From the NCBI RefSeq assembly GCF_000011485.1, contig NC_005071.1:62001-126000 (forward strand): 64,000 nt of DNA. The letters run 5' to 3'. Each line of letters starts with the position of its first letter. Position 1 is the stretch's first letter. Both the position numbers and the translations under genes were made by a program. The notes under the pieces were generated by a model that was given only the letters and a program-made list of their open reading frames with translations, made no database searches and was not told where the DNA came from. The stretch is from Prochlorococcus marinus str. MIT 9313. Its GTDB lineage: Bacteria; Cyanobacteriota; Cyanobacteriia; PCC-6307; Cyanobiaceae. Positions 34,948-54,495 of the stretch are shown here, piece after piece.

Positions 34948-36018
34948 ATGGTAGCCACTAATTTTTTGATCTCACCAATTCTTAGCCTTGATGCTCTTAA
35001 TATAGCAGGTGCGGACAAAACTTTTAGGGTATATTTTCACACTCAAGAAGGACCAGTCACTGTCTCGTTGGGAAATTCTCCGCAGGTTATAACTGCATTG
35101 TCACCTTCCGATGCATGGCTTCTCTTTGCTACAAATCAGTTGGCTAAAATTAGCAATGCGGCGGATGTTTACTTTCAAAGAGTTTATGATAGCACCAATA
35201 CAGACATATCATTCTATTACGACACTACCATTGACCTGGGCGATCCAAGCGTCACTACTTTCGGCGTAGCTGTTCCTAATAATAATGGTGGTCGACAGTG
35301 GACGGAGATCTTTCTAAATGGCCCAGAGATACAGGCAAAATCAGAAGATTTTAGTAATTATGTCTTTAATCACGAGCTCGGACATGCTCTTGGTTTAGAG
35401 CATCCTCACGACAATTCTGATGGTGATGTCTACTTAAGTACTGACCCCCAACTCAGTGCTACTCCCGAAGAGACTGTAATGTCTTATCGAGTACCAGAGT
35501 CAGGCGTATATCCAACTGATTTTTCAATCAATGATTACAATGCTTTAGAGCAAATTTGGGGAAGCCCACAAGCTCAATCGACGCAGAATGTTGTTTATCG
35601 TCTTTATCAGCAAAGCACAGGAAGGCATTTGTTCTCGGCTAATTTGACTGAGGTTGACATTCTTACTGGAGGCAATTCGTCTGATTACCTCAACGAGGGT
35701 ATCGCTTATCAAGTCCAAGAAGGAGCAGACCAAGATCTTTACAGATTCTTCCAGCCATCTACGGGACTTCATTTTTATAGCGCTAATTCCGATGAACGTG
35801 ATAATCTAATTAATTCAAATCAATCAGGATATATTTACGAGGGAGTTGCTTATAAAGTTTTTTCTGCCTCCTCTGCAGCTGAAGCGAGTACAGCTGTGAC
35901 TCGTTTTTATGACCCAATTGCGGGCACTCATTTTTATACAGCTAATCTTGAGGAACAACGTATTCTTGAAGTAACTCAACCTAGTTGGATCATGGAAGGC
36001 ACCGCTTGGTATGTCTAA
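34948..36018 (+). CDS. Matrixin-like zinc metalloprotease with three DUF5648 repeats
   Basis: 356 residues. The zinc site HELGHALGLEH is at 142-152 (His142, Glu143, His146, His152), and Met178 in VMSYR forms the Met-turn of metzincins. Three repeats follow (about 215-256, 263-304, 316-356), each with an R-[LF]-[YF] start, a TG-HF-SAN core and an EG-AY-V end. This is the DUF5648 pattern found in secreted proteins. There is no Sec signal peptide and no RTX nonapeptide, so export by a type I system is the natural guess. Its 3' end overlaps the acyltransferase gene by eight bases. Substrate unknown: surface-protein processing or external protein digestion are both possible. Confidence 0.85.
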   Translation: MVATNFLISPILSLDALNIAGADKTFRVYFHTQEGPVTVSLGNSPQVITALSPSDAWLLFATNQLAKISNAADVYFQRVYDSTNTDISFYYDTTIDLGDPSVTTFGVAVPNNNGGRQWTEIFLNGPEIQAKSEDFSNYVFNHELGHALGLEHPHDNSDGDVYLSTDPQLSATPEETVMSYRVPESGVYPTDFSINDYNALEQIWGSPQAQSTQNVVYRLYQQSTGRHLFSANLTEVDILTGGNSSDYLNEGIAYQVQEGADQDLYRFFQPSTGLHFYSANSDERDNLINSNQSGYIYEGVAYKVFSASSAAEASTAVTRFYDPIAGTHFYTANLEEQRILEVTQPSWIMEGTAWYV

Positions 36019-37470: not shown

Positions 37471-39931
37471 ATGGGATCAACTTCTACTACAACCAGTACA
37501 GCTGTAGCTGTAACACCCACAGAAGTTTCAGTATTTGAACATCGCTTACTTCGGTAGGCCCGCCGATCCGGCTTCTTTAGGAGCCTGGCCAGCGTCTGGC
37601 ACGACTCCAGGCGAACTTGTTCTTCAGTTTGTTGGCACCGCTGAGTACAACACAAACACCATTGTTCCAAACAGCGTTGAAACCACTGGTGGAGGTAAGA
37701 CGCTAAACGAAACAAATCTGATCAACACCTTCTACAACAGGCTTTTTGGGCGCGACGCATCTATAACAGAAATCGATGGCTGGACCAATGCTTTGGCTAC
37801 TGGGGCGGTCAACTCCGATTACCTCGGCATCACCATCCTGAATGCTGGGCTGAATTTGCCCGCCGCCACAGAAATGCGTCAGGTGTTGGTGGCCAAGTTT
37901 GATACCGCTCAGCTCTGGACTGGAGATCTGTATAACGACCCCACCGCACGGGGAGCATATTCCAGCTCTACAGCCATTGAATCTGGCATGAGCTTCCTGG
38001 CCACTGTTACGACCTCTACCGCTGCAACTTCCGAAGCCACGGCTGCGGCAGTTGACGACATGACCTCTACTTCGGGTACTGGTACTGGTGGTCAGGCTTT
38101 TAACCAGATTGCTAACAATGCTGTCCTTACAGATGGTGCAAACACCAACAACGCTGGTACTGGCCCCGGCTTCACTCCTACCGCCTCCACCCTTGGTGCA
38201 AATAATGACACAGTTCGCCTGAGCGTCTTCAGGGGAGCAACCATTGCGGACAGCACCAGTACTGATGAAGACATACTGATTCTTGATCAAACCGGTTTAG
38301 TGCAGACTGCATTGGCAGTTGCGGGGTTTGAGAACATCAACCTGAATGGAGCCGCTGGCCTCTCGGTGGGTACTCTTGCCGGTGTTCAGACAGTTAACTT
38401 CAATAATGCCGGATTCTTAAGTGCTGGCACGACCATTTCGACCGCTAATTACTTCATAGCCAACACCGGTGCCAACGCACTTGGAACTGCTGGTGGATCA
38501 CTTTCGCAGCTCAGCTTGAGCTTTAACAGTGCAACTGATGGCGGTTCTTTTGCTATGGCAAGAACCACTGCGCTGTCAGCTACATTCACTTCGACAGCTG
38601 TTAACTCTTACACGCTGTCTTCGCTGGTAGCTTCTGGTTCTATCGAAGTTAATGCTGGCTCTGCAAACACCCTCAACTTGAATATTGGTGGTGCTGGTGT
38701 ATTCACAGGTGGAGGCACATTTAGCGCTGCTAACTTCACCGTTAACGCAGTCAGTCAGTTCAACACCCTGGCATCAGTTAGTGCTAACACTGGTGCTAAT
38801 AACGTTTATTCCTTCCAAGGTGGAGGCTTAAATACTTACACCCTGAATGGTGCAGTTGGTGGTGCCCAAGTCTCCCAGCACCTCACAAACTTCAGTGGTC
38901 TTGATGCACTTGGACTCAAGACCCTTACTGCAAGTAGTGGCTTCTCTGCTGGTTTGATTAGTGCAAGCTTCTCATTCAACCTTCAAGATGGTGCTTTCGC
39001 AGTTAGCCTTGGTGGTACTGCTGTCGTAGCTGGCTTCACTTCATTTGCAAGTGGTGTCATGTCTAACGGGCTACTTAACTTCTCTGCTGCAAACGCATCG
39101 GGTGCTTCTGACGTCTTCACCCTCAATTTCAACGCGAGTACTGCAGCCCTCGCGATTGAATCGGCTGCAATCCGGATTGGTGGTGGTACCGCTGGCACGC
39201 AGGCAATTGAAACGGTCAATCTCAATGTGTTCGGCGGTTCTGCCGGTGTCACTCTGATAAACCCAATCTTGGGTGTGTCAGGAATGACTACCTTGAACTT
39301 GAATACAACAGCCGTCGCTACCGTTACGTTTAGCGGTGCCATAATGGCTGACTTGGGCAGCTCGTTCACAACCATCGGGCTTAGCCAGGTTGACAACATT
39401 GCCAACATGACCCTTGGCTCTCAGATCAACAGAACTGCTGCGACTGTTCAGGGCTACACCCTAAATATGGGTTCTGGTAATGATGTTATTAACAGCCGTA
39501 ACTACATCGCCCTGACAGGTGCTGCTGCACTTGCTACTCAGATGGCTGCTAATGGTGCTCAGTACAACAACATCAGTCTGAGCGATGGCGGTGCTGACCG
39601 CATCGTCGTCAGTCTGGCTGGTCTTGCTGCTATATCTAGCTTTAGTAAGATCAACGTCTCTGGCTTTGGTATCGGCGATACCTTGCAATTCACAGCAGTT
39701 GGCTGGGCGGCGATCGTCACCATGACAGGTGTTAGTGCGGCCTCCGCTTTGAGTTCAGATATTGGTCTGTTCTTCAACGGTACCGATACTCTTGTCTTCG
39801 CTAATTCAGCAGCATCAGCTGCTGGCGATATGAACTCCGCCTTCGTCGGACTACTTGCGGGCGCTGACTATTCCAACTTCGCTCGTTGGAACCTGAACGC
39901 TGGTGGTGGAACCATGACCCTTGTGAACTGA
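37471..39931 (+). CDS. S-layer-like secreted protein with DUF4214-like repeats; N-terminal frameshift
   Basis: About 820 residues if repaired. The ATG at 37471 opens MGSTSTTTSTAVAVTPTEVS, the usual start of such picocyanobacterial proteins, but this frame stops at 37555. The body continues in the +1 frame from about 37535 (NIAYFGRPADP). Two DUF4214-like units follow (NIAYFGRPADP and FYNRLFGRDASI, about 60 residues apart), then some 600 residues of Ala/Gly/Ser/Thr/Asn-rich beta-strand repeats with few charges. It has no Sec signal peptide and no classic RTX repeats. Composition and context point to a type I-exported, self-assembling surface protein rich in possible O-glycosylation sites. GC is higher than in its neighbours. 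It is monocistronic, with its own promoter and terminator. Confidence 0.8.
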
Positions 39932-39962: not shown

Positions 39963-39995
39963 AAAGGGTGGCCTACAGAGGCCACCCTTTTTTTT
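39963..39995 (+). terminator. Rho-independent terminator of the S-layer-like gene
   Basis: Perfect stem GGGTGGCC/GGCCACCC (39966-39973 with 39980-39987) extended by two A-T pairs, loop TACAGA, followed by a T-run (eight T in all). It ends the S-layer-like transcript 30 bases after the stop and separates it from the Maf operon. Confidence 0.95.
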
Positions 39996-40027
39996 GTCCT
40001 TGCCGATACTTAATCATTCCCCTTGCT

Positions 40028-40036
40028 TGGTATAAT
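40028..40036 (+). promoter_or_regulatory. Candidate extended -10 promoter of the Maf-type I secretion-Pse operon
   Basis: TGG followed directly by TATAAT (an extended -10, TGnTATAAT). No good -35 box precedes it, as is usual for extended -10 promoters. Transcription would begin near 40043, 16 bases before the GTG at 40059, which argues for that start codon over the in-frame TTG at 40023. Confidence 0.5.
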
Positions 40037-40058
40037 TACAAGCTATATTCCTACTATC

Positions 40059-42140
40059 GTGACCCTTAGAGAAACAAATATTGATTTTATTCAAAATGTC
40101 AATCAGCAATTTATTGATAGTCTTCCTAAAGACGAAGACAAAAGTTGGGAACAGGTATTTGATGATACCGGTTATTTAATTAACTTTAAACATAAAGATG
40201 ATGGACGTCTATTATATCCAACCAGCCTAGATGAGCACGAAAATGCTGTACTAAATGCTTTTATCGGGTGCCCATCCAGGCTTTTAATGAATGATTATCG
40301 CTTTCTTTTGGAAGACGATGCTCCCACTAAAGCCCCGATACTCGAGAAGTTAAGTAAATCCAACCCGGCATCCCTTAATTTAGAAGATATCCACGATATT
40401 AATGAAGATATTGAACCCTCTTGGGCAATGGTTGAAATCGGAAATTATTTAAGAGAGAATAAGCTTCAGCTTTCTCAGGCTGGTATTCATTCAGAAGGAT
40501 GTGCTCTTGTCATTTTAGGCCTAGGTTCAGGTAGATGTATTCCGCATCTCATTCAATATTTGAAGCCAAGTGCGCTATTTATTGTTGAACCTGACATTGA
40601 TATTCTTTCTTATTCTCTTGATACACTAGATTACTCAGAGCTTATTCCGCAATTTACAGGTACTTCAAAAGCATTCGATTTCGTAGTTGCTCCAACACCT
40701 CAGTCAGCTGTTAACCAGATAAGGAGTCTTTTGACTGTGAGAAATCTTTTTCTCATAGATGGGATGTTTACTTTCCAATCTTTCGACACACCATTTTTTA
40801 ACCTTACTAAGAAGCTCCTTCATTCAAGCGAGACTTTAAACCCAATTAATTATCTGGGATATTTCATTGACGAACTTCATATGACAATGAATGCTGTAGT
40901 TAACTATAAACACCTTAAACCAAAAGTATTTAATAGTACAAAAGTTGAGTCCAACGATAAACATGCCGTCATTTGTGCTAGTGGACCTTCTCTAGCATCT
41001 GATTTGGAGATGATCAAGAATAATCGTGAAAAATACGCTGTTATTTCTTGTTATAGTACAATCGCCAAGTTATTGGATTCAGGTATTGTCCCTGACTACC
41101 ATTGTGACTTAGAAAGGCATAACGATCATCTTCTGTTGCTTGATAAAGGGATAGATTCTGAGACCCTTAAAGATGTGACTTTATGTTGTAGCAGTACTTG
41201 TGATCCTAGACTGCTAGGGATGTACAAAGAATGTATTTCAATTAATAGAGGAGCACTAACACCATCTGTTATATTCTCTGAGAGTAATGATATTATTCCT
41301 AACGAAGGGCCTGATGTTGCAACATTTGCAATTCTTAGCGCAATCTTCCTAGGCTTCAGAACTCTACATCTCTTTGGCGTTGACCTTGGTACAGCAGATA
41401 GATCACAATGTCGGCTTCCAGGAGTTCTAGATATTGATCGCCGTGTATACAATATCCCAGCGCGAGGAAATCAAGGAAAAACAGTATTCACAGGACAATT
41501 ACTTATTGATAATCGACTAGCCATCGAACAAAATATTTCTTTGTATAAAGGACATTTCCCAGACCTAAAGGTTTTAAATTATAGCGATGGCGTTTACATT
41601 AATGGTGCTATTCCTACTAAACCCTCGGAGTTCCCTTCTATTATAAAATCTGCCCCCAGTTTCTCAGGTCTTAGCCATAAATTTGTTCCTTATTCTGAAA
41701 CTCATGTCAATAATTCTTGGGAAGTGGCTGACCTCAGAATGAGATCGTTTACGTATATTGAGAATCTTAGGACAATTAAAAATGATCCTTTTCTGATGGA
41801 TAATCTTTATAAGGTTAGTGATCTTTCCAATGCTGCTGGCAAAAGTTATCAGGACCAAATCCCTATTCGTTTCTACCGTGGTAGTATGTTCCGAACATGG
41901 ATAATGTTAGTAGGTGTTTATAATAGACTTGTTTGTGAAGACCATGAACGTGAAGCCTTTGAAGAGTTTTCCAAGAAAATACTTAATGATATTCTTGATT
42001 CTTTCCAAAACCTAACCTTTGAAATGATTGATTATGTTGAAACTATCGATTCTGTAGATGACTTTGCTATGGAGAGCAAACTATTTAGAAGTGACCCTGA
42101 TTCTAAACCTTTAGTAATGAGTGCTTCAGTAGCTGCTTAA
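40059..42140 (+). CDS. Maf-type (DUF115) glycosyltransferase
   Basis: 693 residues from the GTG at 40059. It has the two-part layout of motility accessory factors: an N-terminal Rossmann-like domain with VILGLGSGRCIPHL (about 150-165), then the DUF115/MptE-like domain beginning AVICASGPSL (about 303-312) and FGVDLGTADRS (near 440). A helical C-terminus follows. Characterised Maf proteins transfer pseudaminic or legionaminic acid to Ser/Thr of flagellin in the cytoplasm. Here the gene leads an operon with a type I exporter and a pseudaminic acid pathway. I infer O-glycosylation of the exported protein, most likely the upstream S-layer-like product, before secretion. Confidence 0.85.
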   Translation: MTLRETNIDFIQNVNQQFIDSLPKDEDKSWEQVFDDTGYLINFKHKDDGRLLYPTSLDEHENAVLNAFIGCPSRLLMNDYRFLLEDDAPTKAPILEKLSKSNPASLNLEDIHDINEDIEPSWAMVEIGNYLRENKLQLSQAGIHSEGCALVILGLGSGRCIPHLIQYLKPSALFIVEPDIDILSYSLDTLDYSELIPQFTGTSKAFDFVVAPTPQSAVNQIRSLLTVRNLFLIDGMFTFQSFDTPFFNLTKKLLHSSETLNPINYLGYFIDELHMTMNAVVNYKHLKPKVFNSTKVESNDKHAVICASGPSLASDLEMIKNNREKYAVISCYSTIAKLLDSGIVPDYHCDLERHNDHLLLLDKGIDSETLKDVTLCCSSTCDPRLLGMYKECISINRGALTPSVIFSESNDIIPNEGPDVATFAILSAIFLGFRTLHLFGVDLGTADRSQCRLPGVLDIDRRVYNIPARGNQGKTVFTGQLLIDNRLAIEQNISLYKGHFPDLKVLNYSDGVYINGAIPTKPSEFPSIIKSAPSFSGLSHKFVPYSETHVNNSWEVADLRMRSFTYIENLRTIKNDPFLMDNLYKVSDLSNAAGKSYQDQIPIRFYRGSMFRTWIMLVGVYNRLVCEDHEREAFEEFSKKILNDILDSFQNLTFEMIDYVETIDSVDDFAMESKLFRSDPDSKPLVMSASVAA

Positions 42141-42142: not shown

Positions 42143-42892
42143 ATGTCTACTTCGATGCGCTCTGTGCAACCAGGTCAATCAACAATAGACTATTTAGATC
42201 AAATAATAGAGGATAATTCTGAGAAAATATTATCCTCTTTAGTGCTTCATCATTTACAAGCAGCTACTTTGTCTGATTGGTGCTCTTACGTCATCGACTC
42301 CTCCATTGAGCAACAATTTCATTGGGACGATCCTCAAGAAGCACATCTTCATTGGTGGAATTCAATATCAGACACTTCTGCTATGAGTGAATGGCTTGAA
42401 CAGTCATTTAATCAATATTGTCTAAAGTGGCGTACTGCTGTTTCTTCCGCTTATTATTCTGCTTCAATTGCAATTTATGAGGAACAATTAGAGTCACTGT
42501 ATATTGAAAAACGTAATTCTTATGAATATGCGCATTGTAAAATATTTGATTTTGGCTCCAATCGTGGTCTGGCTTTGGAGATGAGTGTTGCTGCTGAATC
42601 AGGTAGTGATATAAATAAAGATCTTCAAGATATTAATCAAGCCACTGAAAAGATTTCCCTTGCAGATATTAGTAATGGCATACCTTCAATTCTTGCCTCT
42701 ACATCTCCAGGAGATTGGCTTCCTCCTTTTTTCAATGGTGTTTCTTGGTTGCTGCTTCAAGTTGAACAAATCGAAAGACCATCTTTAAAAGAACTTGCCC
42801 CCATTCTTCTTAGAGATGCTTGTCAAGCATGGAGAGAGGAAAAAACGCAGAGCCTCACTGCCTATTGGATTAAACAGTTAGCCGAAAACTAA
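42143..42892 (+). CDS. Divergent parvulin-like accessory protein of type I secretion system 2
   Basis: 249 residues, no signal peptide or membrane helix. I do not recognise a close family, but position and layout match the PpiC-like gene of the other exporter operon (21236-22015). Both precede the ABC gene directly. Both end with a closing strand (WLLLQVEQIER here, WWVVTRLEER there) followed by about 30 helical residues with a central Trp and an EN near the end. The central segment with GLALEMSVAAESGSD aligns with LAHELYLQIEAGEAD. The isomerase active site looks eroded, so a substrate-holding role is likelier than catalysis. It overlaps the ABC start by one base (TAATG). Confidence 0.65.
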   Translation: MSTSMRSVQPGQSTIDYLDQIIEDNSEKILSSLVLHHLQAATLSDWCSYVIDSSIEQQFHWDDPQEAHLHWWNSISDTSAMSEWLEQSFNQYCLKWRTAVSSAYYSASIAIYEEQLESLYIEKRNSYEYAHCKIFDFGSNRGLALEMSVAAESGSDINKDLQDINQATEKISLADISNGIPSILASTSPGDWLPPFFNGVSWLLLQVEQIERPSLKELAPILLRDACQAWREEKTQSLTAYWIKQLAEN

Positions 42893-45837
42893 TGTCATTG
42901 AAAAAATCATTTAATTCAACTTCAAAAAATTATTCAAGGGGGTCGATTCTTATTGACGAAAATATTTGGCCTACAACTCTAACTAAAATACGAGTTGGTT
43001 CTGTCAGATGGCTTTCTCGTCATCCCGGTAATGGTCTTCTTTCTCCAGTACAAAGCCAAATTGCTCCAAATTCACCAGTCGGTTCATGGGATCTAGTCAC
43101 TGGCATACCAGTCGAGCATTGCTTAGTTACTTCTGATGTCTTTGATGCAGAAGAGTGTCATCTGGATGTTTGGATAAAACAGTTTCTGAGTGCACCTACA
43201 GACCATTGGCCTGAATTACAACCTTTTGAACTCATTTCTGTCTTTGGTGATAGCCTTAATAAATTACCAAAGTTTACCTTTGAGCTTGTTAAATTAGGCT
43301 CTAGATTTATTGAATTATTTGAGCTCATTGCTCCGCTTCAATTAGATAATCTTTCAGACTTAACTCAATTTGTTAAGGACTCTGGCGACGCTGCAATTTT
43401 CTGTGGTTCTGGTCAGAAAAGTGGCCTGTATGGTTTATGTCTCCAGAATGCAAATGACCAAGAGCTTGAAAGACTGTATCTTCAAAATAATGACTTTCCT
43501 CTCCGTCTGTATCGCCTCAAGATCCCTGATACATCAGCCATTCACGAATTTGACTCTTGGTTAATGAATCAGATTGATATTATTACTGGTATTTCTGAGG
43601 ACTTTTCTTATCAGTTTCGAGATTTACGATCGCTTTCTACACTTTCAATTGAGTCTGTAGATATTGATGCAGTTCGAGCTGATGATATAAACCCTACAGC
43701 TGTGGCTTTGTTGCTTATGGCTTGTCAAGCTGTTGAAGTCACCCCAAGATTACAGCGTTTACAACGTACTAGCTCTGTCCTCTTTAAGCAAGCCACTATA
43801 CCTTCTTTAAGAACCCTTATTTCCATTCTGGCCCCTTTAACTGAGCTTCGTTTAATAGAGCTTTCTCAAACATATCGAAATTTGTTGGTTTCACGTACCC
43901 CCTTTTTTGCGGCGCCTATAAATAATTCTGCAGAAGATCAAGATCATTTGTGTCTCTGGCAGCCACGAGAAGGCTTGCGCTTTGCTGTTTATGATCCATT
44001 GCAGTCTGATTCTCAGCCTTCTTTTATTTCTTTAGGTGATCTTCCTCATAACCCCCAATCAATTTTTACAATTGAACAGGATCCAACTGCAGGGATTGAA
44101 CGTTTTGGCTTTCGTTGGTTCATGCCTGAACTTAAGCGTCACAAACTTGCATTATCAATTATCTTAGTGAGTTCACTCTTCATTCAAGTACTACAGCTTG
44201 CCAACCCCCTTCTGATTCAGCAAATCATTGATCTTGTCTTAGGTCAGAGAAGTATAAGTACTCTTTATAGCTATGGTTCATTCTTAATAGTTTTAGCTTT
44301 TTTTCAAAGTTTGCTTACTGGTTTGCGCAGTCTTCTATTTGTTGAAACTACCAATAGGATTGATGTTCGTGTTGGCACATCTATTATTGATCATCTTTTG
44401 CATCTGCCTATTAGTTATTTTGACAAGCGTCCTGTTGGTGAAGTGAGCACAAGGGTTGGTGAGTTGGAAAATATACGTAGTTTCTTGACTGGTCAAGCTT
44501 TAACTGTCTTCCTGGATGTTCTTTTTAGCATTATTTATATCGTTGTTATGCTCATCTATAGCGTTCCTTTGACAATAGCTGCTCTTTCGACAATTCCGTT
44601 CTCAGTGATTCTTGCTGTTGTTTTTTCGCCAGTTATTAAAAACAATATTGATGATCGTGCTGTATCCGCTGCAAAAACAACTTCTTTTCTAGTCGAACAC
44701 CTTAACGGTATGATGACAGTTAAAAGTCAAAATATTGAGGACCTAACTCGTATCTCATGGAGAAGACTTTATGTTGACTTTGTGCAGAAGGGTTTTCGTC
44801 TAACAGGAATTGGAACAATTGTTGGAGAACTCAACAATTTCTTAACCCTCCTTTCTAGTGTTTTAGTTATTTTTGTAGGAGCAATTCTTGTTATCGATGG
44901 CAAATTATCAGTTGGTCAATTAATTGCCTTCCGTATTATTTCAGGCTATGTTACTGCTCCAATAATGCGTTTATCGACTCTTTGGAGATCTTTTCAAGAG
45001 CTGTCTGTTAGTGTTCAAAGGCTTGCTGATGTTGTTGAGTCCAAAACCGAGCCTCAGACTCAAACTAGCCGTTTCATACTTCCCCCAATAAAGGGCAACG
45101 TAAAGTTGTGCAACCTATCTTTTAGGTACCCTGGTACAGAGGAAGTTGTTTTAAAGAGATTAAACCTAACAGTCCCTGCAGGAAGTTTTGTAGGAGTTGT
45201 TGGAGGTTCTGGATCTGGAAAAAGTACACTAATGAAATTATTTCCCCTTATTTATAGACCCACTGGGGGTACGATATTGATTGATGATTATGATACTCAG
45301 AAGGTTGATTTAGATTCTTTGCGTCAGCAGATTGGCATCGTCCCACAGGAACCACTGCTTTTCGCCGGTTCTGTATGGGATAACCTAATTGTTGGGAATG
45401 CGAAAGCTACAGAAAAAGAAGTAGAAAAAGCTGTTCGGGCTTCTGAAGCTTACGAGTTCATTATGCAGCTCCCGAATGGTTTCGAGACTGATGTTGGTGA
45501 ACGGGGAGGACGGCTATCTGGTGGTCAACGTCAACGATTAGCTATTGCACGTGCCCTCCTTTCTAATCCATCTTTGCTTGTCTTAGATGAAGCTACCAGT
45601 GCATTAGATTATAGGACAGAAGCTGCCGTTTGCCGCAATCTTTTTAAGTACTTAGAGGGCAAAACTGTCTTCTTTGTTACTCATAGGCTAGCAACTATTC
45701 GTCCCGCAGATGTTATCCTCATGATGGATAGAGGAGTTGTTGTTGAATCTGGTACTTATGATGAGCTATTGTCCGCTGAAGGACTTTTTAGTTCTTTCGT
45801 CGGCTGTCAGAATCGGGATGGATCTTTAAATTCATGA
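42892..45837 (+). CDS. Type I secretion ABC exporter 2
   Basis: 981 residues. An N-terminal half of about 400 residues with little similarity to the CAP_ED domain of the other exporter ends in a region that may be a worn C39-like docking domain. The membrane domain (about 420-700) and ATPase follow, with Walker A GGSGSGKST near 773, signature LSGGQRQR, Walker B LLVLDEAT and FVTHRLA. From the first membrane helix onward it is clearly paralogous to the exporter at 18312 (shared LANPLLIQ, YFDKRPVGE, QLIAFRIISGYVT). It overlaps the HlyD gene by four bases. Location implies export of the S-layer-like protein and perhaps the metalloprotease. Confidence 0.92.
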   Translation: MSLKKSFNSTSKNYSRGSILIDENIWPTTLTKIRVGSVRWLSRHPGNGLLSPVQSQIAPNSPVGSWDLVTGIPVEHCLVTSDVFDAEECHLDVWIKQFLSAPTDHWPELQPFELISVFGDSLNKLPKFTFELVKLGSRFIELFELIAPLQLDNLSDLTQFVKDSGDAAIFCGSGQKSGLYGLCLQNANDQELERLYLQNNDFPLRLYRLKIPDTSAIHEFDSWLMNQIDIITGISEDFSYQFRDLRSLSTLSIESVDIDAVRADDINPTAVALLLMACQAVEVTPRLQRLQRTSSVLFKQATIPSLRTLISILAPLTELRLIELSQTYRNLLVSRTPFFAAPINNSAEDQDHLCLWQPREGLRFAVYDPLQSDSQPSFISLGDLPHNPQSIFTIEQDPTAGIERFGFRWFMPELKRHKLALSIILVSSLFIQVLQLANPLLIQQIIDLVLGQRSISTLYSYGSFLIVLAFFQSLLTGLRSLLFVETTNRIDVRVGTSIIDHLLHLPISYFDKRPVGEVSTRVGELENIRSFLTGQALTVFLDVLFSIIYIVVMLIYSVPLTIAALSTIPFSVILAVVFSPVIKNNIDDRAVSAAKTTSFLVEHLNGMMTVKSQNIEDLTRISWRRLYVDFVQKGFRLTGIGTIVGELNNFLTLLSSVLVIFVGAILVIDGKLSVGQLIAFRIISGYVTAPIMRLSTLWRSFQELSVSVQRLADVVESKTEPQTQTSRFILPPIKGNVKLCNLSFRYPGTEEVVLKRLNLTVPAGSFVGVVGGSGSGKSTLMKLFPLIYRPTGGTILIDDYDTQKVDLDSLRQQIGIVPQEPLLFAGSVWDNLIVGNAKATEKEVEKAVRASEAYEFIMQLPNGFETDVGERGGRLSGGQRQRLAIARALLSNPSLLVLDEATSALDYRTEAAVCRNLFKYLEGKTVFFVTHRLATIRPADVILMMDRGVVVESGTYDELLSAEGLFSSFVGCQNRDGSLNS

Positions 45838-47219
45838 ACCTCATAAATAAAAGTAAGTCTGTCGATAGGTTTTCAAAAGAAAAACTTTATCGTTCCTTCC
45901 GTACCCGACTTTCATCACTTAGTCACTTTCCTGGCTCAGCTTGGATGCGAAAAAGACTAGATAAGATAACACCTAACGCTTCTTATGAAAATGACTTTCC
46001 TTCGCGTCGTTGGCCACTTATTTTACTTACTTCTCTAAGTGGATTTGTAGGCATTCTACTGGTTTGGTCATTAATTGCACGAAGTGAGATTTCTGTTGAC
46101 ACTCAAGGTCGTCTTCGTCCATCTCAGACGCCTACTACAAGTCGTGCGTTTAGTCTGACTACTTCTTCAACAATTTTCGTTAAAGAAGGTGATTTTGTCC
46201 AAAAAGGCCAGCCAATAATGCAACTTGATGATGAGTCGCTAAAATCAAAGCTTCTAGCTCTTGAGAATCGCTATTCAAAAATATACGTTGAACTTCAAGA
46301 AACATCTCGCTTTATCGGCTTGAACTTTCCATCTGATCTTCCTAAACCTAAGCTATCTTATTCACTAGACCTTAGCGTTGTACGTAGTTCTCTTGAATTT
46401 ATAAATACCCAAAAGGAAAAAGTTGCACAACTAGAGGCACGTTTAGAGCAATTATTGGTTAAGCATAAATCACTTGAGCAAAACATTAAGCTTCAATCAA
46501 TTATTGTAGAAAAGCACGAAAGACTTTTGAATTCTGGCGCCATAGCTGAACTGCAAGTTCTACAGCAAAGCCAAAAGCTACAAGATCTTAAATCTGAATT
46601 AGAATCAAATCAACAAGATCAAATTCGTACCAGAGCTGCCTTACGCGAATCTGGCAGTGAATTTACAGGACGCAATAATTCTCTTTATAGCCAGCGTATT
46701 AGTGAACTTAGTTCTATATATGCTGAGATAAGCTCCACTAAAGACGCTATTCGTAACTCCTTGCTTCGTGCACCTCTTACAGGTTATGTCTTTCGTTTGG
46801 CAGTCAAAGTTCCTGGAGTTCCTGTTCGACCTGGTGAAGAGCTTTTTCAAATCATACCTAGTGAACTTCTTACAGCTTCCGTTGATGTTCCCGCAAGAGA
46901 TATAGGCTTTATCAATAAAGGTATGCAAGTAGATGTACACATTGATAGTTATCCTTCCTCTACCTATGGAGTCCTTAAGGGCACTGTCAAAAGTATCGGA
47001 CGTGACTCAATTGAGCCTACTTCACCCATACAGCTGCCTACCTACAGCATTCCAGTAGATGTCCAGCTACAAAAGCAGTCTCTAGTGAGTAAAGGTAAAT
47101 ATTATCCATTGAAACCGGGTATGACTGCTCGTGTAAGTTTTAACCTGAGAACTGTTAGTGTATTCCGGCGCTTGTTTGATGCGACCAGCTCTATCTTGAA
47201 TCCCCCCCCCAACAGGTAA
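45834..47219 (+). CDS. HlyD-family adaptor of type I secretion system 2
   Basis: 461 residues. A cytoplasmic segment of about 60 residues, one membrane helix (about 62-84), a lipoyl half-motif with FVKEGDFVQKGQPIM, a long coiled coil (about 125-300), the second half-motif (APLTGYVFRL) and a beta-barrel domain. It is longer than its counterpart at 17135 in both the N-terminal part and the coiled coil. A run of nine C at 47202-47210 lies three codons before the stop. It ends 28 bases before pseB. Confidence 0.92.
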   Translation: MNLINKSKSVDRFSKEKLYRSFRTRLSSLSHFPGSAWMRKRLDKITPNASYENDFPSRRWPLILLTSLSGFVGILLVWSLIARSEISVDTQGRLRPSQTPTTSRAFSLTTSSTIFVKEGDFVQKGQPIMQLDDESLKSKLLALENRYSKIYVELQETSRFIGLNFPSDLPKPKLSYSLDLSVVRSSLEFINTQKEKVAQLEARLEQLLVKHKSLEQNIKLQSIIVEKHERLLNSGAIAELQVLQQSQKLQDLKSELESNQQDQIRTRAALRESGSEFTGRNNSLYSQRISELSSIYAEISSTKDAIRNSLLRAPLTGYVFRLAVKVPGVPVRPGEELFQIIPSELLTASVDVPARDIGFINKGMQVDVHIDSYPSSTYGVLKGTVKSIGRDSIEPTSPIQLPTYSIPVDVQLQKQSLVSKGKYYPLKPGMTARVSFNLRTVSVFRRLFDATSSILNPPPNR

Positions 47220-47247: not shown

Positions 47248-48267
47248 ATGAACTTTAATTCTTCTACCAGCATATTTATAACTGGAGCTACTGGAAGTTT
47301 CGGTAAAGCTTTTATATCTCAACTTCTGACTCAAAATCCTCATATTCATCGTGCCGTCGTTTTCAGTAGAGATGAGCTTAAGCAGTGGGAATTTCAACAG
47401 CTCTACCCTCAGAAGCAATACCCTCAGCTACGCTTTTTCCTTGGTGATATACGTGATCAGACGAGGCTTCGTCGTGCCCTAGAGGGTATTGATACCGTTG
47501 TACATGCAGCAGCTTTAAAGCAGGTCCCAGCGGCTGAATATAATCCATTCGAATTTATCCGAACTAACGTCATAGGTGCACAAAACCTTATAGAGGCTTG
47601 CCTTGATAGTGATGTCGAGAGAGTAGTAGCTCTTTCTACTGACAAGGCAGCAGCACCGGTTAATCTATATGGAGCAACTAAATTATGTTCTGATAAATTG
47701 TTTATTGCTGCAAATAATTTTGTTGGCAGTAGAAAGCTGCGTTTCTCCGTAGTACGTTATGGAAATGTTATGGGGTCCAGAGGATCTGTTATTCCTTTTT
47801 TCTTGGAACAAGCTCCATCTGGAGTATTACCAATTACTGATTCTCGTATGACTAGATTTAATATTTCACTCCAGGAAGGAGTAAATATGGTTATGTGGTC
47901 ATTAGAAAATTGTTTGGGTGGTGAACTTCTTGTCCCTCGTATTCCCAGCTATCGTATCGTCGATGTTGCCAAAGCTATAGGACCTAGTTGCACTACGCCT
48001 ATTACAGGTATACGCCCAGGCGAAAAAATTCACGAAGAAATGATTACCTCTAGTGATTCTTTTACAACAGTAGATCTCGGTAATTATTTTGCTATATTAC
48101 CTAATTCTGGACTTTGTGCACCTGATTCATATTGCGAGAGGACTGGTGCAAAGCGTGTGGTTGAGGGTTTTGCTTATGACTCTGGTACTAATACAGAATT
48201 TCTAACTGTTGAGCAAATTCGCGAGCTTATAAAGATTCACGTTAATCCTTCGTTTCAACCTCTATGA
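47248..48267 (+). CDS. pseB: PseB: UDP-GlcNAc 4,6-dehydratase (5-inverting)
   Basis: First step of pseudaminic acid synthesis: converts UDP-GlcNAc to the 4-keto-6-deoxy-L-arabino-hexose intermediate. The 339-residue SDR enzyme has the nucleotide motif ITGATGSFG (11-19), catalytic Thr131-Asp132-Lys133, and the Tyr141-Lys145 pair in YGATK. The RDELKQWEF and RPGEKIHEEMI segments are typical of PseB rather than of retaining dehydratases. The C-terminus diverges somewhat from textbook PseB. Its stop overlaps the pseC start by four bases, coupling two successive enzymes. Confidence 0.95.
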   Translation: MNFNSSTSIFITGATGSFGKAFISQLLTQNPHIHRAVVFSRDELKQWEFQQLYPQKQYPQLRFFLGDIRDQTRLRRALEGIDTVVHAAALKQVPAAEYNPFEFIRTNVIGAQNLIEACLDSDVERVVALSTDKAAAPVNLYGATKLCSDKLFIAANNFVGSRKLRFSVVRYGNVMGSRGSVIPFFLEQAPSGVLPITDSRMTRFNISLQEGVNMVMWSLENCLGGELLVPRIPSYRIVDVAKAIGPSCTTPITGIRPGEKIHEEMITSSDSFTTVDLGNYFAILPNSGLCAPDSYCERTGAKRVVEGFAYDSGTNTEFLTVEQIRELIKIHVNPSFQPL

Positions 48268-49430
48268 GTAATCTTGACCCACTTCCTTACGGTAAGCAAT
48301 CAATAACGCCTGATGATGTTGCAGCAGTTACAGAAGTTCTTCAAAGCCCTTTTTTAACGCAAGGACCAGTTCTTCCTGTCTTCGAGCAGGCATTATCTAA
48401 TTACACAAAATCGCAATATTCTATAGCTGTTAATTCAGCAACAAGTGCACTTCACATTGCCTGTCTAGCTCTTGGTGTGGAGCCTGGTGATCGTATCTGG
48501 ACCTCTCCAATTACATTTGTCGCTTCAGCCAATTGTGGTCGATATTGTGGAGCAAAAGTTGAATTTGTAGATATCGATCCTCGTACTGCTCTTCTCGATA
48601 CTGATCTATTAAAGAAGAAATTAATAGCTGCTGATCGAGATGGAGCACTCCCAAAAGTTATTATTCCGGTACATCTCACTGGAACTAGTTGTGATATGGC
48701 TTTGATCGGTGAATTAGCTGATTTATTTGGCGTTCATATTATTGAAGATGCTAGTCATGCTATTGGTGCTTATTATATGGATATGCCAGTTGGAAATTGT
48801 CGTTTTAGTTCCATTTCTGTATTTAGCTTTCATCCTGTGAAAATAATTACTACGGCTGAAGGAGGTCTGGCTACAACGAATGATCCTATATTGGCTGAAC
48901 GAATGTATCTTTTACGCAGTCATGGTATTGAGCGAAATCCTGAAAAGTTCGAGCTGCAAAGTCCTGGTCCTTGGTATTATGAGCAGCATGGTCTTGGTTT
49001 TAATTATCGTTTAACGGAATTGCAGGCAGCGCTTGGATTAAGTCAATTAAAGCGTCTTGATTTAATTGTTGATGAACGCAATCGTCTGCTCGATAACTAT
49101 AAATGTCTCTTAAAAGACCTTCCCATAACGTTTTTAGAAATACCTTCTTCTTGTAGGTCAAGTGTACATTTGGCTGTGATTCTTCTTGAAACCATAAATC
49201 CCCTTAATCACAGACGTGTTTTTGAGGGACTCCGTTCTGCAAGTATAGGTGTTCAGCTTCATTATAGCCCAGTTCATTTGCAGCCTTATTATAGAAGTCT
49301 TGGCTGGAAAATGGACGACTTCCCTTTTGCTGAGAGTTATGCATCTAGAGCTATTAGCCTTCCTTTGTTCCCAGGTCTCACAGAGGATGATCAGCAAAGA
49401 GTTGCTGATGCCTTGAGAACTTTGTTATGA
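48264..49430 (+). CDS. pseC: PseC: UDP-4-keto sugar aminotransferase
   Basis: PLP enzyme of the DegT/DnrJ/EryC1 family that aminates C4 of the PseB product. The 388 residues include Asp162 in IIEDASHAIGA and the Schiff-base Lys193 in SFHPVKIITTAEGG. The opening LPYGKQSITPDDVAAV and FLTQGP segments are the standard PseC start. Its stop overlaps the next gene by four bases (ATGA). Confidence 0.95.
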   Translation: MSNLDPLPYGKQSITPDDVAAVTEVLQSPFLTQGPVLPVFEQALSNYTKSQYSIAVNSATSALHIACLALGVEPGDRIWTSPITFVASANCGRYCGAKVEFVDIDPRTALLDTDLLKKKLIAADRDGALPKVIIPVHLTGTSCDMALIGELADLFGVHIIEDASHAIGAYYMDMPVGNCRFSSISVFSFHPVKIITTAEGGLATTNDPILAERMYLLRSHGIERNPEKFELQSPGPWYYEQHGLGFNYRLTELQAALGLSQLKRLDLIVDERNRLLDNYKCLLKDLPITFLEIPSSCRSSVHLAVILLETINPLNHRRVFEGLRSASIGVQLHYSPVHLQPYYRSLGWKMDDFPFAESYASRAISLPLFPGLTEDDQQRVADALRTLL

Positions 49431-50323
49431 CCCCAGTACAACTTTCTTTAGGTACTGCTCAGTTTGGTCTTGACTATGGAGTTACTAATCGAACAGGTCA
49501 AGTCCCCGAAGACGAAGTCAAAAGTATACTATTAGCAGCTCAACGTTCTGAAGTTCGTTTTTTAGATACAGCTCAGGCTTATGGTGATTCAGAATCCGTT
49601 CTTGGTCGTTGTTTAGACCCTGATAGCTCATTTTGCTTGATTTCTAAACTACCTGCTCAGACATCTGATCCATATACCTCTGTGTCTGTAGATGCATGGG
49701 AAGTTAGTTTTCAACAAACTTTAATTCGTTTAGGTTGTTCCAAAATCGATAGTTTTTTATTACATCAACCTGCTGACCTCTTACGTCCTGATTCTCATTT
49801 CTTGCTTAGTTGGTTAAGTAGTCTTCGCAAACGCTCTTTTGTCCGAAGAGTTGGAGTCTCTGTTTATTCTTCTTCAGACCTTGATGATCTTCCCCTTGAT
49901 CAAATACAGATTGTTCAGCTTCCTTTGTCTTTATATGATCAGCGTGCTTTGCATGATGGAACCATTTCAAGATTAAATGGTCTGGGTATCGCTGTGCATG
50001 CTAGGAGTACCTTTTTACAGGGGTTGTTGCTTACACCATCTGAACAATGGCCTGCTTGGATAGATCCTGACTTTCGTTTGCATCATTCATCGCTTGAAGC
50101 GTTTGCTGTTGAGCATAATTTAACTTTACTAAGTTTATCTCTGGGCTTTGTACAAAGCTGCTCTCAATTAGAGGCAGCTGTAGTCGGAGTAACAACGTAT
50201 ACTGAGTTAATGTCTCTTCTTGCTGTATGGATGTCATATTCCACTGCTCATCCGTTCGGTGATCCACATTGTTGGGCTTGGCCAAAAGGTCGTAGTCTTG
50301 ACCCGCGTCTTTGGCCTTCCTGA
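49427..50323 (+). CDS. Aldo/keto reductase in the nonulosonic acid operon
   Basis: 298-residue TIM-barrel oxidoreductase. LGTAQFGLDYG opens the barrel, FLDTAQAYGDSE carries the catalytic Asp and Tyr, and SKLPAQ supplies the Lys position. Reductases of this type are seen in several nonulosonic acid clusters but are not part of the basic six-step pathway. It may reduce a keto sugar at a branch, for example to alter stereochemistry, but I cannot assign a reaction. It overlaps pseC and precedes the amidotransferase by six bases. Confidence 0.88.
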   Translation: MTPVQLSLGTAQFGLDYGVTNRTGQVPEDEVKSILLAAQRSEVRFLDTAQAYGDSESVLGRCLDPDSSFCLISKLPAQTSDPYTSVSVDAWEVSFQQTLIRLGCSKIDSFLLHQPADLLRPDSHFLLSWLSSLRKRSFVRRVGVSVYSSSDLDDLPLDQIQIVQLPLSLYDQRALHDGTISRLNGLGIAVHARSTFLQGLLLTPSEQWPAWIDPDFRLHHSSLEAFAVEHNLTLLSLSLGFVQSCSQLEAAVVGVTTYTELMSLLAVWMSYSTAHPFGDPHCWAWPKGRSLDPRLWPS

Positions 50324-50329: not shown

Positions 50330-51577
50330 ATGACTGCTCCTTTCTCTACCCAGCTGAAACGCTGCACAACTTGTCTACTCCCAGAAACACATGAGACCCT
50401 TGTTCTTGATTCCGAGGGAGTTTGTAATATTTGTAGAGCTCAGGAAGTTAAAGCAGAAATTAACTGGGAAGAGCGCCTAGTTCATCTTGACAAATTAGTT
50501 GCCGAGTATCGTGGAAATTATCGATATGACTGTCTAATTCCTTTTAGTGGTGGTAAAGACAGCACTTGGACTCTCTATTACCTTATGAATCGCTATCCAG
50601 GCATTAAGCCTTTGGTAGTTCGTTTTAATCATGGTTTTTTACGACCGAATCTTCGCGCTAATTGCGATCGGGTCTTTCGAAAGTTAGGTGTTGATGTACA
50701 TGACTTCTCACCTAGTTGGAAAGTTGTTCAGCGTTTAATGCTCCAATCTTTTCTTGAAAAAGGAGATTTTTGCTGGCATTGCCATACTGGTATATTTGCT
50801 TATCCAATGCAAGTAGCTATTAAGGAGCAGGTACCTCTTATCTTTTGGGGCGAACCATCAGCAGAATACACTGCATATTACAATTATGATCAAGCTGAGG
50901 AAGTTGACGAAGAGCGTTTTAACCGATACGTAAATCTTGGCATTTCTGCTGAAGATATGCTTGTTCGATTGGATGGCTATTTGGACGAGCGTGATGTCGA
51001 ACCTTTTCGTTATCCACCACTCAAGGAATTACGCCAGTTAGGTTACCGTTCTGTATGTCTCGGTAGTTATATCCCTTGGGATGTAAAAATGCAAGTCGGG
51101 AAAATTCGTGAAGAGCTGGGATGGAAGGGAGACCTTGTCGAAAATGTACCTGAAGACTTTAATTACGAAAAGATTGAATGCTGGATGCAGGGTGTTCGCG
51201 ATTATATAAAATATATTAAGCGTGGCTATACTCGACCTACCCATCTTGCAGCTATCGACTTACGTAATAATAGAATTAGTAAGGAGGAAGCAAAAGCTAT
51301 GATTACTCAATTTGAAGGTCGCCGCCCCCCTAGTCTTGACCTTTTCCTTGACTATGTTGGTTTAGATGAAGAACAGTTTTATACAATAGCTATGGGTCAC
51401 CAAGTATCTCCTTGGCAATTTGATCCTGATTCGATTAAGTCTGGCCCTAAAACGCCTGACTTTGAAGATTGGCTCAGAGGTGACGGACTAGATCTTGTTG
51501 ATGCTGAAGACCAACTTGGTCGATGGGCTGATTCATGTTCAAGCTGTTCTTCATCATCTAGTTGTTCAGGCGGTTAA
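50330..51577 (+). CDS. N-acetyl sugar amidotransferase (PseA/WbpG-like)
   Basis: PP-loop ATPase that converts an N-acetyl group to an acetamidino group, using ammonia from a HisH/HisF pair. The 415 residues contain a CTTC...CNIC cysteine set (12, 15, 32, 35), the PP-loop SGGKDS (73-78), and the CWHCHTG segment. Its partners follow directly (HisH2, HisF2). Homologues include Campylobacter PseA and Pseudomonas WbpG. The last 13 residues are an unusual Cys/Ser-only-like tail (three Cys in CSSCSSSSSC, then SGG). The product would be an amidino-substituted nonulosonic acid or precursor. Confidence 0.9.
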   Translation: MTAPFSTQLKRCTTCLLPETHETLVLDSEGVCNICRAQEVKAEINWEERLVHLDKLVAEYRGNYRYDCLIPFSGGKDSTWTLYYLMNRYPGIKPLVVRFNHGFLRPNLRANCDRVFRKLGVDVHDFSPSWKVVQRLMLQSFLEKGDFCWHCHTGIFAYPMQVAIKEQVPLIFWGEPSAEYTAYYNYDQAEEVDEERFNRYVNLGISAEDMLVRLDGYLDERDVEPFRYPPLKELRQLGYRSVCLGSYIPWDVKMQVGKIREELGWKGDLVENVPEDFNYEKIECWMQGVRDYIKYIKRGYTRPTHLAAIDLRNNRISKEEAKAMITQFEGRRPPSLDLFLDYVGLDEEQFYTIAMGHQVSPWQFDPDSIKSGPKTPDFEDWLRGDGLDLVDAEDQLGRWADSCSSCSSSSSCSGG

Positions 51578-51579
51578 GT

Positions 51580-52230
51580 ATGACCGCTTGCGTACTTATT
51601 GTTGATGCAGGCCTAGGGAATATAGGTTCCGTTGTTGCAGCATACGATCGTCTTGGTGTACGCAATTTTCGTATTCGCAAACCTCCTTCAGATATTGCTT
51701 GCTACACCCATTTGATTCTCCCTGGTGTAGGTTCATTCTCTGCTGGAATGGACTCACTTAACAGTTTAGGTTGGTCAGATTGGTTGAAAGATGTTTGGCT
51801 TCCAACAGGACGTCCCTTACTTGGCATCTGCCTTGGTATGCAACTTCTTGCCTCTAGAGGTTTTGAAGGCTCTGATTCAGGTAATTCAATCCCCGGACTC
51901 GATCTTATCTCAGGTAAAATCGTACTTATGTCCCCTAGTCAAAATTTGGCGCTTCCCCACGTTGGCTGGAATTCGGTGTATTGGTCAAACACAATAACCC
52001 CACTTTCAGTAGACATAAATTCTGGCTGTGATTTTTATTTTGTTCATAGTTACACATTCCGTTGTGATGATGATTCAAACTGCCTTGCTACCTCTAATTA
52101 TGGTTCACAATTTTCCGCTGTTGTTTCAGACATTAGTCGTAATGTATGGGGTATGCAGTTTCATCCAGAAAAAAGTCAAAAGTTGGGTAAGTGTCTCCTT
52201 CAAAATTTCATTGCTCTTAATCCATGCTGA
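51580..52230 (+). CDS. hisH2: HisH2: glutamine amidotransferase subunit partnering the sugar amidotransferase
   Basis: 216 residues from the ATG at 51580, two bases after the previous stop; the frame is open a few codons further upstream but overlaps the tail of the amidotransferase gene. It is a class I glutaminase with Cys84 in GICLGMQLL and the His195/Glu197 pair in FHPEKS. HisH normally serves histidine synthesis. Placement beside the PP-loop enzyme and a HisF paralogue shows that it instead supplies ammonia for sugar amidination. It overlaps hisF2 by seven bases. Confidence 0.92.
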   Translation: MTACVLIVDAGLGNIGSVVAAYDRLGVRNFRIRKPPSDIACYTHLILPGVGSFSAGMDSLNSLGWSDWLKDVWLPTGRPLLGICLGMQLLASRGFEGSDSGNSIPGLDLISGKIVLMSPSQNLALPHVGWNSVYWSNTITPLSVDINSGCDFYFVHSYTFRCDDDSNCLATSNYGSQFSAVVSDISRNVWGMQFHPEKSQKLGKCLLQNFIALNPC

Positions 52231-53009
52231 AAAAACGCCTTATACCAAAGCTTCAGTTCTCGATTAAGCCAAGTTATCGTGGCCCAAAACCTGTCCTAGT
52301 CATTACCCGTCAATTTGACTCAAAGAGGGCTATCGGCGACCCTGTCTCGCAGGCCAAGATATATGAAGCTCAGCTCGCCGACGAACTCGTTCTTGTAGAT
52401 TTAGAAGGAACTTCTGATAGCTGGCCAATTTTACTTGACACGCTTTCGAATATGTCTGAATCACTTGCAACTCCACTTTCTGTAGGTGGTGGTATAACAT
52501 CTTTCGAGCAAGTTCAGCAATTATTAGATCGAGGAGCAGATAAGGTTGTCCTCAACTCTGGAGCTGTTAATAATCCCCAGCTAATAGACCTTGTAGCTAA
52601 TTCATATGGCTCCCAATGTGTAGTTATTAGTATTGATATTCGCAAGGAGTCTGATCTAAGTAGACACGTATATATAGATGGTGGCTCTACAGCTACTGAT
52701 TGGAGTTTATTTTCATGGGCAAATGATTGCGCTTCCAGAGGTGCTGGTGAACTATTGATTACTTCTATCGACAACGATGGTACTGGTACCGGACTTGATT
52801 TAGATTCTATTAGGCAACTCAGATACGAAGTCAATTTGCCACTTATTGCTTCTGGAGGATGTGGCTTGGCTCAGCATTTTGTTGCTGGTTATGAGGTAGG
52901 AGCCTCTGCTGTTGCAGCTGGAACCTTCTTCTCGCAACGTGATCAGAATCCTATGCAGTGCCGTTCTCATATTCGTAATGCGGGCCTTCCAATTAGACTA
53001 GAGCAATGA
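52224..53009 (+). CDS. hisF2: HisF2: cyclase-like subunit of the sugar amidination complex
   Basis: 261-residue TIM barrel of the HisF family, with SVGGGITSFEQV, DKVVLNSGAV and SIDNDGTGTG phosphate-site motifs. The catalytic Asp11 of true HisF (IPCLDV) is replaced (IPKLQF), while the second aspartate is present (Asp138 in ISIDIRK). Loss of Asp11 is expected when the barrel only channels ammonia and docks a sugar enzyme. It overlaps both neighbours by a few bases. Confidence 0.92.
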   Translation: MLKKRLIPKLQFSIKPSYRGPKPVLVITRQFDSKRAIGDPVSQAKIYEAQLADELVLVDLEGTSDSWPILLDTLSNMSESLATPLSVGGGITSFEQVQQLLDRGADKVVLNSGAVNNPQLIDLVANSYGSQCVVISIDIRKESDLSRHVYIDGGSTATDWSLFSWANDCASRGAGELLITSIDNDGTGTGLDLDSIRQLRYEVNLPLIASGGCGLAQHFVAGYEVGASAVAAGTFFSQRDQNPMQCRSHIRNAGLPIRLEQ

Positions 53010-53545
53010 AATTATTACGGTCAAACAAAATTACGCTTCGTCCAATTATTAGGAGTGATATTAATGAAAAGTATGTGTCATGGCTTAATGACCCAAATGT
53101 AAATTGTTTTCTTGAGACGCGCTTTTCTGTCCAAACTCTTGATACTGTTTTAAGATATTGGTCTGAGCATAATGGAGACTCTTTAAGTCCATGGTGGGCT
53201 ATTTGTAGAGTTGATGAGCATCATCGACATATCGGTAATATAAAACTCGGACCTATACACCCTATTCATTCTAAGGCAGATATCAGTTTGTTCATTGGCG
53301 ATCGCAATTCCTGGGGTTTTGGTTTTGCAACACAGGCTATAACTTTGGTTCGTGATCACGCTTTTAATGATCTCCTTATTCACAAGATTTCTGCTGGAAT
53401 ATATTCAAATAATATCGCTAGCATAAGGGCCTTTGAAAAATGTAACTTTACCCTCGAAGCTACTCTTAAGCACGAAGCCATTCTTTCCGGATCTCTTAGA
53501 GTAGATGTTCTTCGTTATGGATTAATTAACCCAAGGTTTATGTAA
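53006..53545 (+). CDS. GNAT acetyltransferase (RimJ/PseH-like)
   Basis: 179 residues with the RimJ/RimL-type layout. It opens ITLRPIIRSDI, has the acetyl-CoA loop as RNSWGFGFATQAI (near residue 100), and ends NNIASIRAFEKCNF. A second acetyltransferase, fused to PseG at 55908, is the better candidate for the PseH step. This one may acylate another amino group of the sugar. It is the last gene of the unbroken run starting at 40059; a gap of about 185 bases follows. Confidence 0.85.
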   Translation: MKLLRSNKITLRPIIRSDINEKYVSWLNDPNVNCFLETRFSVQTLDTVLRYWSEHNGDSLSPWWAICRVDEHHRHIGNIKLGPIHPIHSKADISLFIGDRNSWGFGFATQAITLVRDHAFNDLLIHKISAGIYSNNIASIRAFEKCNFTLEATLKHEAILSGSLRVDVLRYGLINPRFM

Positions 53546-53672: not shown

Positions 53673-53730
53673 ATTCTTGTTTTCTCTTTTTCTAGATGTT
53701 AGAATTGAAGGATCCAGTTTTGCTTTAAAC

Positions 53731-54495
53731 TTGAACATTAATACTATTGCCATTTTGCAGGCTCGTACTAGCTCTAGTCGTTTGCCCGGCAAGGTTTTGC
53801 TACCTATTATCGGCAAGCCTATGATTCTGCATCAACTTGATCGGGTTATTCGCTGTTCTTCCATTGATAAATTAGTCGTAGCCACATCCGTAGATTCAAG
53901 TGATGACAAACTCGCCAATACTATTCAATCCGCTGGGTTTTGTGTTTTTCGCGGCGACTTAAATGATGTTCTAAAGCGCTTTGCTGATTGTATATCTTTA
54001 TATGGTGGCAGTACTATAGTTCGTTTGACTGGTGATTGCCCATTGCATGATCCTGCTATTATTGATGAAATTCTTGAAGCGTATTACCTTTCACCTTGTA
54101 ACTATCTAAGTAATTCTTCTGATCCTTCTAATCTGTCTGTTCCTGATGGATTTGATGTGGAAGTATTTGATTCAGAATCGCTCAACCTAGCCTCTATTAA
54201 TGCTCACCTGCCTTCTGAGCGAGAACATGTAACCCCATGGATGCGTCGGTCCGATACCCCTTGTCAAGCTCAGCATTACATCCATAAGAACCCAGTTCCT
54301 TTTTACCGACTTACAGTGGATGATCATCTTGATTTTGAACTTGTCAGCAAGATCATTTCGGAACTCTATCCAACTAACCCTAATTTTGATTTAAAATCTA
54401 TTATTGACTTCTTGTCCAAGAACCCAACTCTTGCCAATACCAATATTAATACATTGCGTAATGAAGGCTACGTTCGTTCACTAAGCAACGATTAG
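53731..54495 (+). CDS. SpsF-type cytidylyltransferase (CMP-nonulosonate synthetase role)
   Basis: 255 residues from a TTG at 53731 (MNINTIAILQAR). The frame stays open to a TTG at 53677, but those 18 residues are not conserved in the family. The nucleotide-binding AILQARTSSSRLPGK motif at the start, the RLTGDCPLHDP segment and PDGFDVEVF identify the SpsF family (a GT-A-like cytidylyltransferase, as in the Bacillus sps operon). In this operon it is the only candidate for the last step, making the CMP-activated sugar that Maf uses. A dedicated NeuA/PseF is absent. Confidence 0.85.
   Translation: MNINTIAILQARTSSSRLPGKVLLPIIGKPMILHQLDRVIRCSSIDKLVVATSVDSSDDKLANTIQSAGFCVFRGDLNDVLKRFADCISLYGGSTIVRLTGDCPLHDPAIIDEILEAYYLSPCNYLSNSSDPSNLSVPDGFDVEVFDSESLNLASINAHLPSEREHVTPWMRRSDTPCQAQHYIHKNPVPFYRLTVDDHLDFELVSKIISELYPTNPNFDLKSIIDFLSKNPTLANTNINTLRNEGYVRSLSND

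Follow-up and report, generated by a model that had tools for sequence, protein, structure and literature searches.

Mafs have, to our knowledge, been described as flagellin-specific enzymes, and what sets their choice of acceptor is an open question. The 64-kb stretch of DNA analysed here (the window), from a picocyanobacterium that is probably a Prochlorococcus, encodes a protein of this family. A sequence-only reading of the window had noted that no flagellin accompanies it and had proposed that its acceptor differs from flagellin. What, then, does this Maf modify? A natural Maf clade in which both acceptor and exporter had changed would offer a comparison for finding the elements of acceptor recognition. 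In the open-access papers that we searched, we found no link between Maf and cyanobacteria.

A Maf family member outside a flagellar system

The longest ORF over maf in the ORF listing begins at a TTG (40023–42140). We set the start at the GTG inside it, at 40059, as the sequence-only reading had done, because the 54%-identical protein of Cyanobium FGCU52 supports that start. The ORF is intact, and its product, already recognized as a Maf-type glycosyltransferase in the sequence-only reading, matches both Maf_flag10_N (PF20157; 4e-17, 62.8 bits, cut-off 23.5) and MptE-like/DUF115 (PF01973; 4e-34, 118.3 bits, cut-off 34.6) in Pfam. The complete genome of 2,410,873 bp holds no other PF01973 gene. 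Its sole sequence match in the PDB is 5MU5, the M. magneticum Maf (5.5e-38), and its score against the flagellin modification protein PseD (NF050051) was 43 bits, far below the cut-off of 670.

The comparison with the Magnetospirillum structure that had been suggested as a check gave the same answer. An AlphaFold model made from 25 relatives (mean pLDDT 85) matched 5MU5 over its whole length in Foldseek (E 7.5e-33, TM 0.72/0.79); the runner-up was an archaeal HPPK (E 9e-4), followed by sialyltransferases. S308, G309, P310, S311, L312, G440, D442, G511 and I514 are invariant in the 25 sequences compared. The window Maf has A at D313, giving SGPSLA in place of SGPSLD, and T at N422. Its catalytic pocket is not lost in the model: the core fold and the SGPSL and GVDLG motifs are kept, and one histidine of the flagellar Mafs is replaced. 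The window Maf is a full-length Maf family member in a non-flagellar system, and as such a putative transferase of nonulosonic acid to Ser/Thr of a protein.

The replaced histidine belongs to an HS/HA motif after GVDLG (Maf residues about 445–465, window about 41391–41453). All 18 flagellar-type Mafs compared have it. The 12 picocyanobacterial Mafs have R or K there without exception, and the residue is Y in most Mafs from Vampirovibrionia-like genomes, non-photosynthetic members of other families of the phylum whose class label we infer from size and content. A loop following the HS/HA site, present in most other Mafs, is absent from the picocyanobacterial ones. The R/K residue may reflect altered chemistry or acceptor choice, and catalysis could differ. 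We do not claim the loss of a catalytic residue, because the flagellin-bearing Vampirovibrionia-like Mafs have Y there.

No flagellin, and an alphaproteobacterial neighbour in the tree

A profile search for Flagellin_N, in which the positive controls matched, found none in the complete genome, and flagellin was likewise lacking from the five other Maf-bearing Cyanobiaceae genomes that we tested. Flagellins were present in all 14 Maf-bearing Vampirovibrionia-like genomes, with 5–11 in each. The absence of flagellin thus holds genome-wide, and the proposal that the acceptor is something else is supported. No flagellin or pilin gene elsewhere is a closer partner for maf, and about 197 kb separate it from the pilin-like genes.

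In the tree, the 12 picocyanobacterial Mafs group together in a single clade (support 96/95). The nearest group is that of alphaproteobacterial Mafs, and the Vampirovibrionia-like Mafs lie far from it. Two of the nearby alphaproteobacterial maf genes have a flagellin gene pair shortly upstream, roughly where the window has its surface-protein gene. The simplest account would be that a flagellar-type Maf was acquired laterally and later took on a new acceptor.

Like A. caviae Maf1, the C. botulinum Maf and M. magneticum 5MU5, the window Maf has three domains with SGPSL and GVDLG. It also shares with the flagellin Mafs linked nonulosonic-acid genes and a presumed action in the cytoplasm before export. 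It differs from them in having R/K for the conserved H after GVDLG, and its system differs in lacking flagellin and flagellar export and in having a type I exporter and an S-layer-like gene linked instead.

A Ser/Thr-rich surface-layer-like protein precedes maf

Directly upstream of maf lies the gene for an S-layer-like protein (Table 1). Ser and Thr together account for 22% of its residues, Cys is absent, and its pI is 4.05. We examined 464 kb of the genome, with 91 ORFs of 400 aa or longer, and no other ORF among them had this Ser/Thr-rich, acidic, Cys-free make-up. Its predicted structure (pLDDT 43) was too poor to interpret. The gene has an apparent N-terminal frame change near 37525, and its homologues in FGCU52 and G434 stay in frame; sequencing error, phase variation and a genuine lesion are all candidate causes. 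An out-of-frame ATG ORF (MGSTSTTTSTAVAVTPTEV...) at 37471–37540 enters the DUF4214 start of the gene near GTTTCAG. Further upstream, at 34948–36018, is a metalloprotease-like protein with DUF5648, homologues of which also lie near the G140, G098 and FGCU52 islands.

SwmA is a surface glycoprotein of Synechococcus involved in swimming motility (PMC3342319, PMC7522525), and swmA has been reported to be specific to Synechococcus clade III. Compared by description only, the two loci are alike in joining a picocyanobacterial surface-protein gene to a glycosyltransferase in a genomic island (PMC3342319, PMC7522525); they differ in that swmA is reportedly confined to clade III and the window genome lies outside that clade by its size and G+C. 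We dropped the idea that the S-layer-like gene is SwmA and the genome a clade III one: G+C is about 53% where the window is conserved and 47% over 400 kb, the part of the genome at 700–1100 kb holds no giant swmB-like ORF, and swmA is reported to be clade III-specific.

A strong terminator-like hairpin separates the S-layer-like gene from maf, and G/C-rich hairpins occupy the equivalent position in FGCU52, G007, G098 and G140 (in G140 from sequence). The sequence-only reading had placed an extended -10 promoter ahead of maf. The site, TGGTATAAT, is indeed present, but the 64 kb contain 2 such sites where chance alone would give 1.55, and none was found upstream of the FGCU52 Maf. We rejected it as evidence, its frequency in the window being no better than chance.

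Table 1 Features of the locus, in window coordinates
Feature	Position	Strand	Basis
S-layer-like protein, proposed acceptor	37535–39931	+	798 aa; DUF4214-type N-terminus, composition
Terminator-like hairpin	39963–39990	+	12 bp stem, then T run
Extended -10-like site TGGTATAAT	40028–40036	+	sequence match; not conserved
Maf-type glycosyltransferase	40059–42140	+	693 aa, GTG start; Pfam domains, PDB sequence match, fold, motifs
p249 (249 aa)	42143–42892	+	weak PPIC/rotamase similarity; slot of PPIC-type proteins in other T1SS operons
Type I secretion ABC transporter (981 aa)	42892–45837	+	profile match
HlyD-family membrane-fusion protein	45834–47219	+	profile match
PseB, UDP-GlcNAc 4,6-dehydratase (inverting)	47248–48267	+	TIGR03589, 529 bits (cut-off 408)
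PseC aminotransferase	48264–49430	+	TIGR03588, 553 bits (cut-off 424)
Aldo-keto reductase (AKR)	49427–50323	+	profile match
WbuX/PseA-like N-acetyl sugar amidotransferase	50330–51577	+	TIGR03573, 302 bits (cut-off 203)
HisH-like glutaminase	51562–52230	+	profile match
WbuZ/HisF-like acetamidino protein	52224–53009	+	292 bits, just below cut-off of 299.7
GNAT acetyltransferase, PseH candidate	53006–53545	+	below cut-off
Cytidylyltransferase, PseF candidate	53677–54495	+	below PseF cut-off
Class III aminotransferase	54570–55904	+	profile match
PseG fused to GNAT domain	55908–57506	+	TIGR03590, 328 bits (cut-off 154)
501-aa ORF, no assigned family	57412–58917	+	kept in FGCU52 (60%)
PseI pseudaminic acid synthase	58917–59981	+	TIGR03586, 487 bits (cut-off 340)

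An exporter and a probable pseudaminic-acid pathway follow maf

The maf gene heads a co-directional run of 16 genes that ends at 59981; the spacing from one gene to the next is mostly in the range -16 to +28 bp. The order is maf, p249, ABC, HlyD, PseB, PseC, AKR, WbuX, HisH, WbuZ, GNAT, cytidylyltransferase, aminotransferase, PseG-GNAT, the 501-aa ORF and PseI. The ABC and HlyD genes (42892–47219) bear out the type I exporter that had been read after Maf; the ABC protein scored 612 bits against the HlyB-subfamily cut-off of 726, so that the family fits and the HlyB subfamily does not. Linkage suggests the S-layer-like protein as the substrate of this exporter, and p249 is a possible export chaperone. 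A pairwise comparison gave no support for homology of p249 to the PPIC-type protein at 21236. That protein belongs to a second type I exporter at 17135–22015, which also comprises HlyD and a cNMP-domain ABC protein and has homologues in the islands of G140, G098, G007, G025, G037 and G434.

The sugar genes resemble the known pathway PseB-C-H-G-I-F with amidination by PseA/WbuX. Judged by NCBIfam cut-offs, PseB, PseC, WbuX, PseG and PseI all score above threshold, and HisH and WbuZ lie alongside; the WbuX/HisH/WbuZ trio we take to lead to acetamidino-substituted pseudaminic acid. The window differs from the known pathway in that its candidates for PseH and PseF bear only a weak resemblance to the models, PseG is fused to a GNAT domain, and the AKR, the class III aminotransferase and the 501-aa ORF are additional. 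As far as gene content can identify a sugar, the product of the operon is probably CMP-activated pseudaminic acid in its acetamidino form.

The cassette and its flanks in other Cyanobiaceae

The sequence-only reading did not mention the hairpin, the pseudaminic-acid operon that extends to 59981, or that the arrangement recurs in other genomes. In FGCU52 all genes from that of the S-layer-like protein through PseI stand in identical order; a few ORFs that are additional or unassigned are interspersed among the sugar genes. Identity is 73% for the exporter, 80% for PseB and 54% for Maf; the most divergent protein of the cassette is the S-layer-like protein, at 34–37%. Among 400 sampled Cyanobiaceae, the window's exporter type and the full-length S-layer-like protein each occur in two genomes only, the window genome and FGCU52. 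The N-terminal module of the S-layer-like protein, some 185 residues long, is found widely on other large proteins.

One such module is found in G434, where the genes flanking the island match their counterparts in the window at 41–85% identity (G434:C1:80001-120000). The S-layer-like gene there has the N-terminal module in common with the window (50% over 157 aa) and a different body. The Maf-T1SS-Pse block is absent from this island, and a phylum-wide search gave no Maf match in G434. This pattern would fit an exchangeable cassette made up of the Maf-T1SS-Pse block and the acceptor body, behind a constant N-terminus. In place of the block, the G434 S-layer-like gene is followed by an ILFVHQNFPxQ-type GT; GTs of this type also follow the surface gene in G037 and lie near surface genes in G140, G098, G007 and G025.

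The last four genomes carry tandem Mafs, 25–28% identical to the window Maf, directly 3' of a different surface gene that is Ser/Thr-rich, acidic and of GGxGxD (RTX-like) type. In each, the Maf locus and a T1SS lie within one hypervariable island, and a terminator-like hairpin fills the gap between surface gene and Maf in at least three of the four loci. All six acceptor-like genes encode 17–24% Ser+Thr and 0–2 Cys. A Ser/Thr-rich surface neighbour was not seen at the third Maf of G007 or at the Maf of Cyanobium E1_MAG_00006. The first Maf of the G140 pair is apparently split, with a frame change near the N-terminus.

Of 151 Cyanobiaceae, 18 passed the PseI cut-off, most of them lacking a Maf, and Mafs occurred in only five; Pse by itself therefore need not mean protein glycosylation, and in this family it often appears to serve other glycans. 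A NeuB-family synthase was present in all five Maf-bearing Cyanobiaceae genomes and the PseI cut-off was passed in only two of them, so the sugar may vary.

A Maf probably re-targeted to a type I-secreted protein

We consider it likely that a Maf nonulosonic-acid transferase has here exchanged flagellin for a new target, a surface-layer protein secreted by the type I route. The operon would supply the CMP-activated pseudaminic acid, probably as the acetamidino form, and Maf would attach it in the cytoplasm to Ser/Thr of the S-layer-like protein while that protein is still unfolded, or folded only in part, and perhaps held by p249. The co-encoded ABC/HlyD exporter would move that protein out in one step, and it would be displayed on the cell. 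Because type I export takes its substrate from the cytoplasm to the outside in a single step, the transferase for a T1SS-exported glycoprotein would have to be cytoplasmic. Type I and flagellar type III exporters both bypass the periplasm, and the sugar must therefore be added inside; in Aeromonas, flagellin is modified by Maf in the cytoplasm, ahead of type III export (PMC4065374).

Gene order, the conserved cassette, co-occurrence and the parallel pairs of Maf and surface protein all point to the S-layer-like protein as the likely acceptor; the FGCU52 cassette, the restricted co-occurrence and the parallel pairs strengthen this link. An active nonulosonic-acid protein transferase might instead serve another exported acceptor, a different T1SS substrate or a type IV pilin-like protein, and the genome does hold four pilin-type N-methylation motifs at 299–303 kb as well as additional T1SS and RTX genes. 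We regard this as unlikely: against the distance of about 197 kb to the pilins stands an S-layer-like protein that is adjacent to maf, co-occurs in full-length form with the cassette and has a composition unique among the large ORFs sampled. It is quite improbable, too, that the operon makes Pse for LPS or capsule and that the Maf-like protein modifies lipids or polysaccharides. The acceptors of known Mafs are proteins, and in both cassette genomes Maf is tightly packed with a protein exporter, not a polysaccharide one, although PseI-bearing Cyanobiaceae without Maf exist and a gene for a teichoic-acid/galactan-type polysaccharide ABC exporter lies at 61063–62496.

The second fold match, archaeal HPPK, and the replaced histidine would suit a degenerate protein or another DUF115 activity, be it the pterin diphosphokinase activity of archaeal MptE or a chaperone role without catalysis. 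The three-domain Maf architecture, the gulf between the two fold matches (5MU5 at 7.5e-33 vs 9e-4), the invariant SGPSL, D442, G511 and I514, and neighbours among which no pterin gene was seen make this highly improbable.

On balance, and with less assurance, we also lean towards conversion of the whole picocyanobacterial Maf clade from flagellin to type I-secreted S-layer/RTX proteins, with Maf, acceptor body and exporter moving as a swappable cassette. If true, this would be a general solution outside flagella, glycosylation in the cytoplasm and then one-step export. A Maf clade with such an acceptor predicts nonulosonic-acid surface coats in some of the ocean's commonest phototrophs, with a bearing on grazing and phage contact. 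Elsewhere in the window genome, a large LanM with a 1084-aa frame (genome 281608–282783) is consistent with a prochlorosin synthetase.
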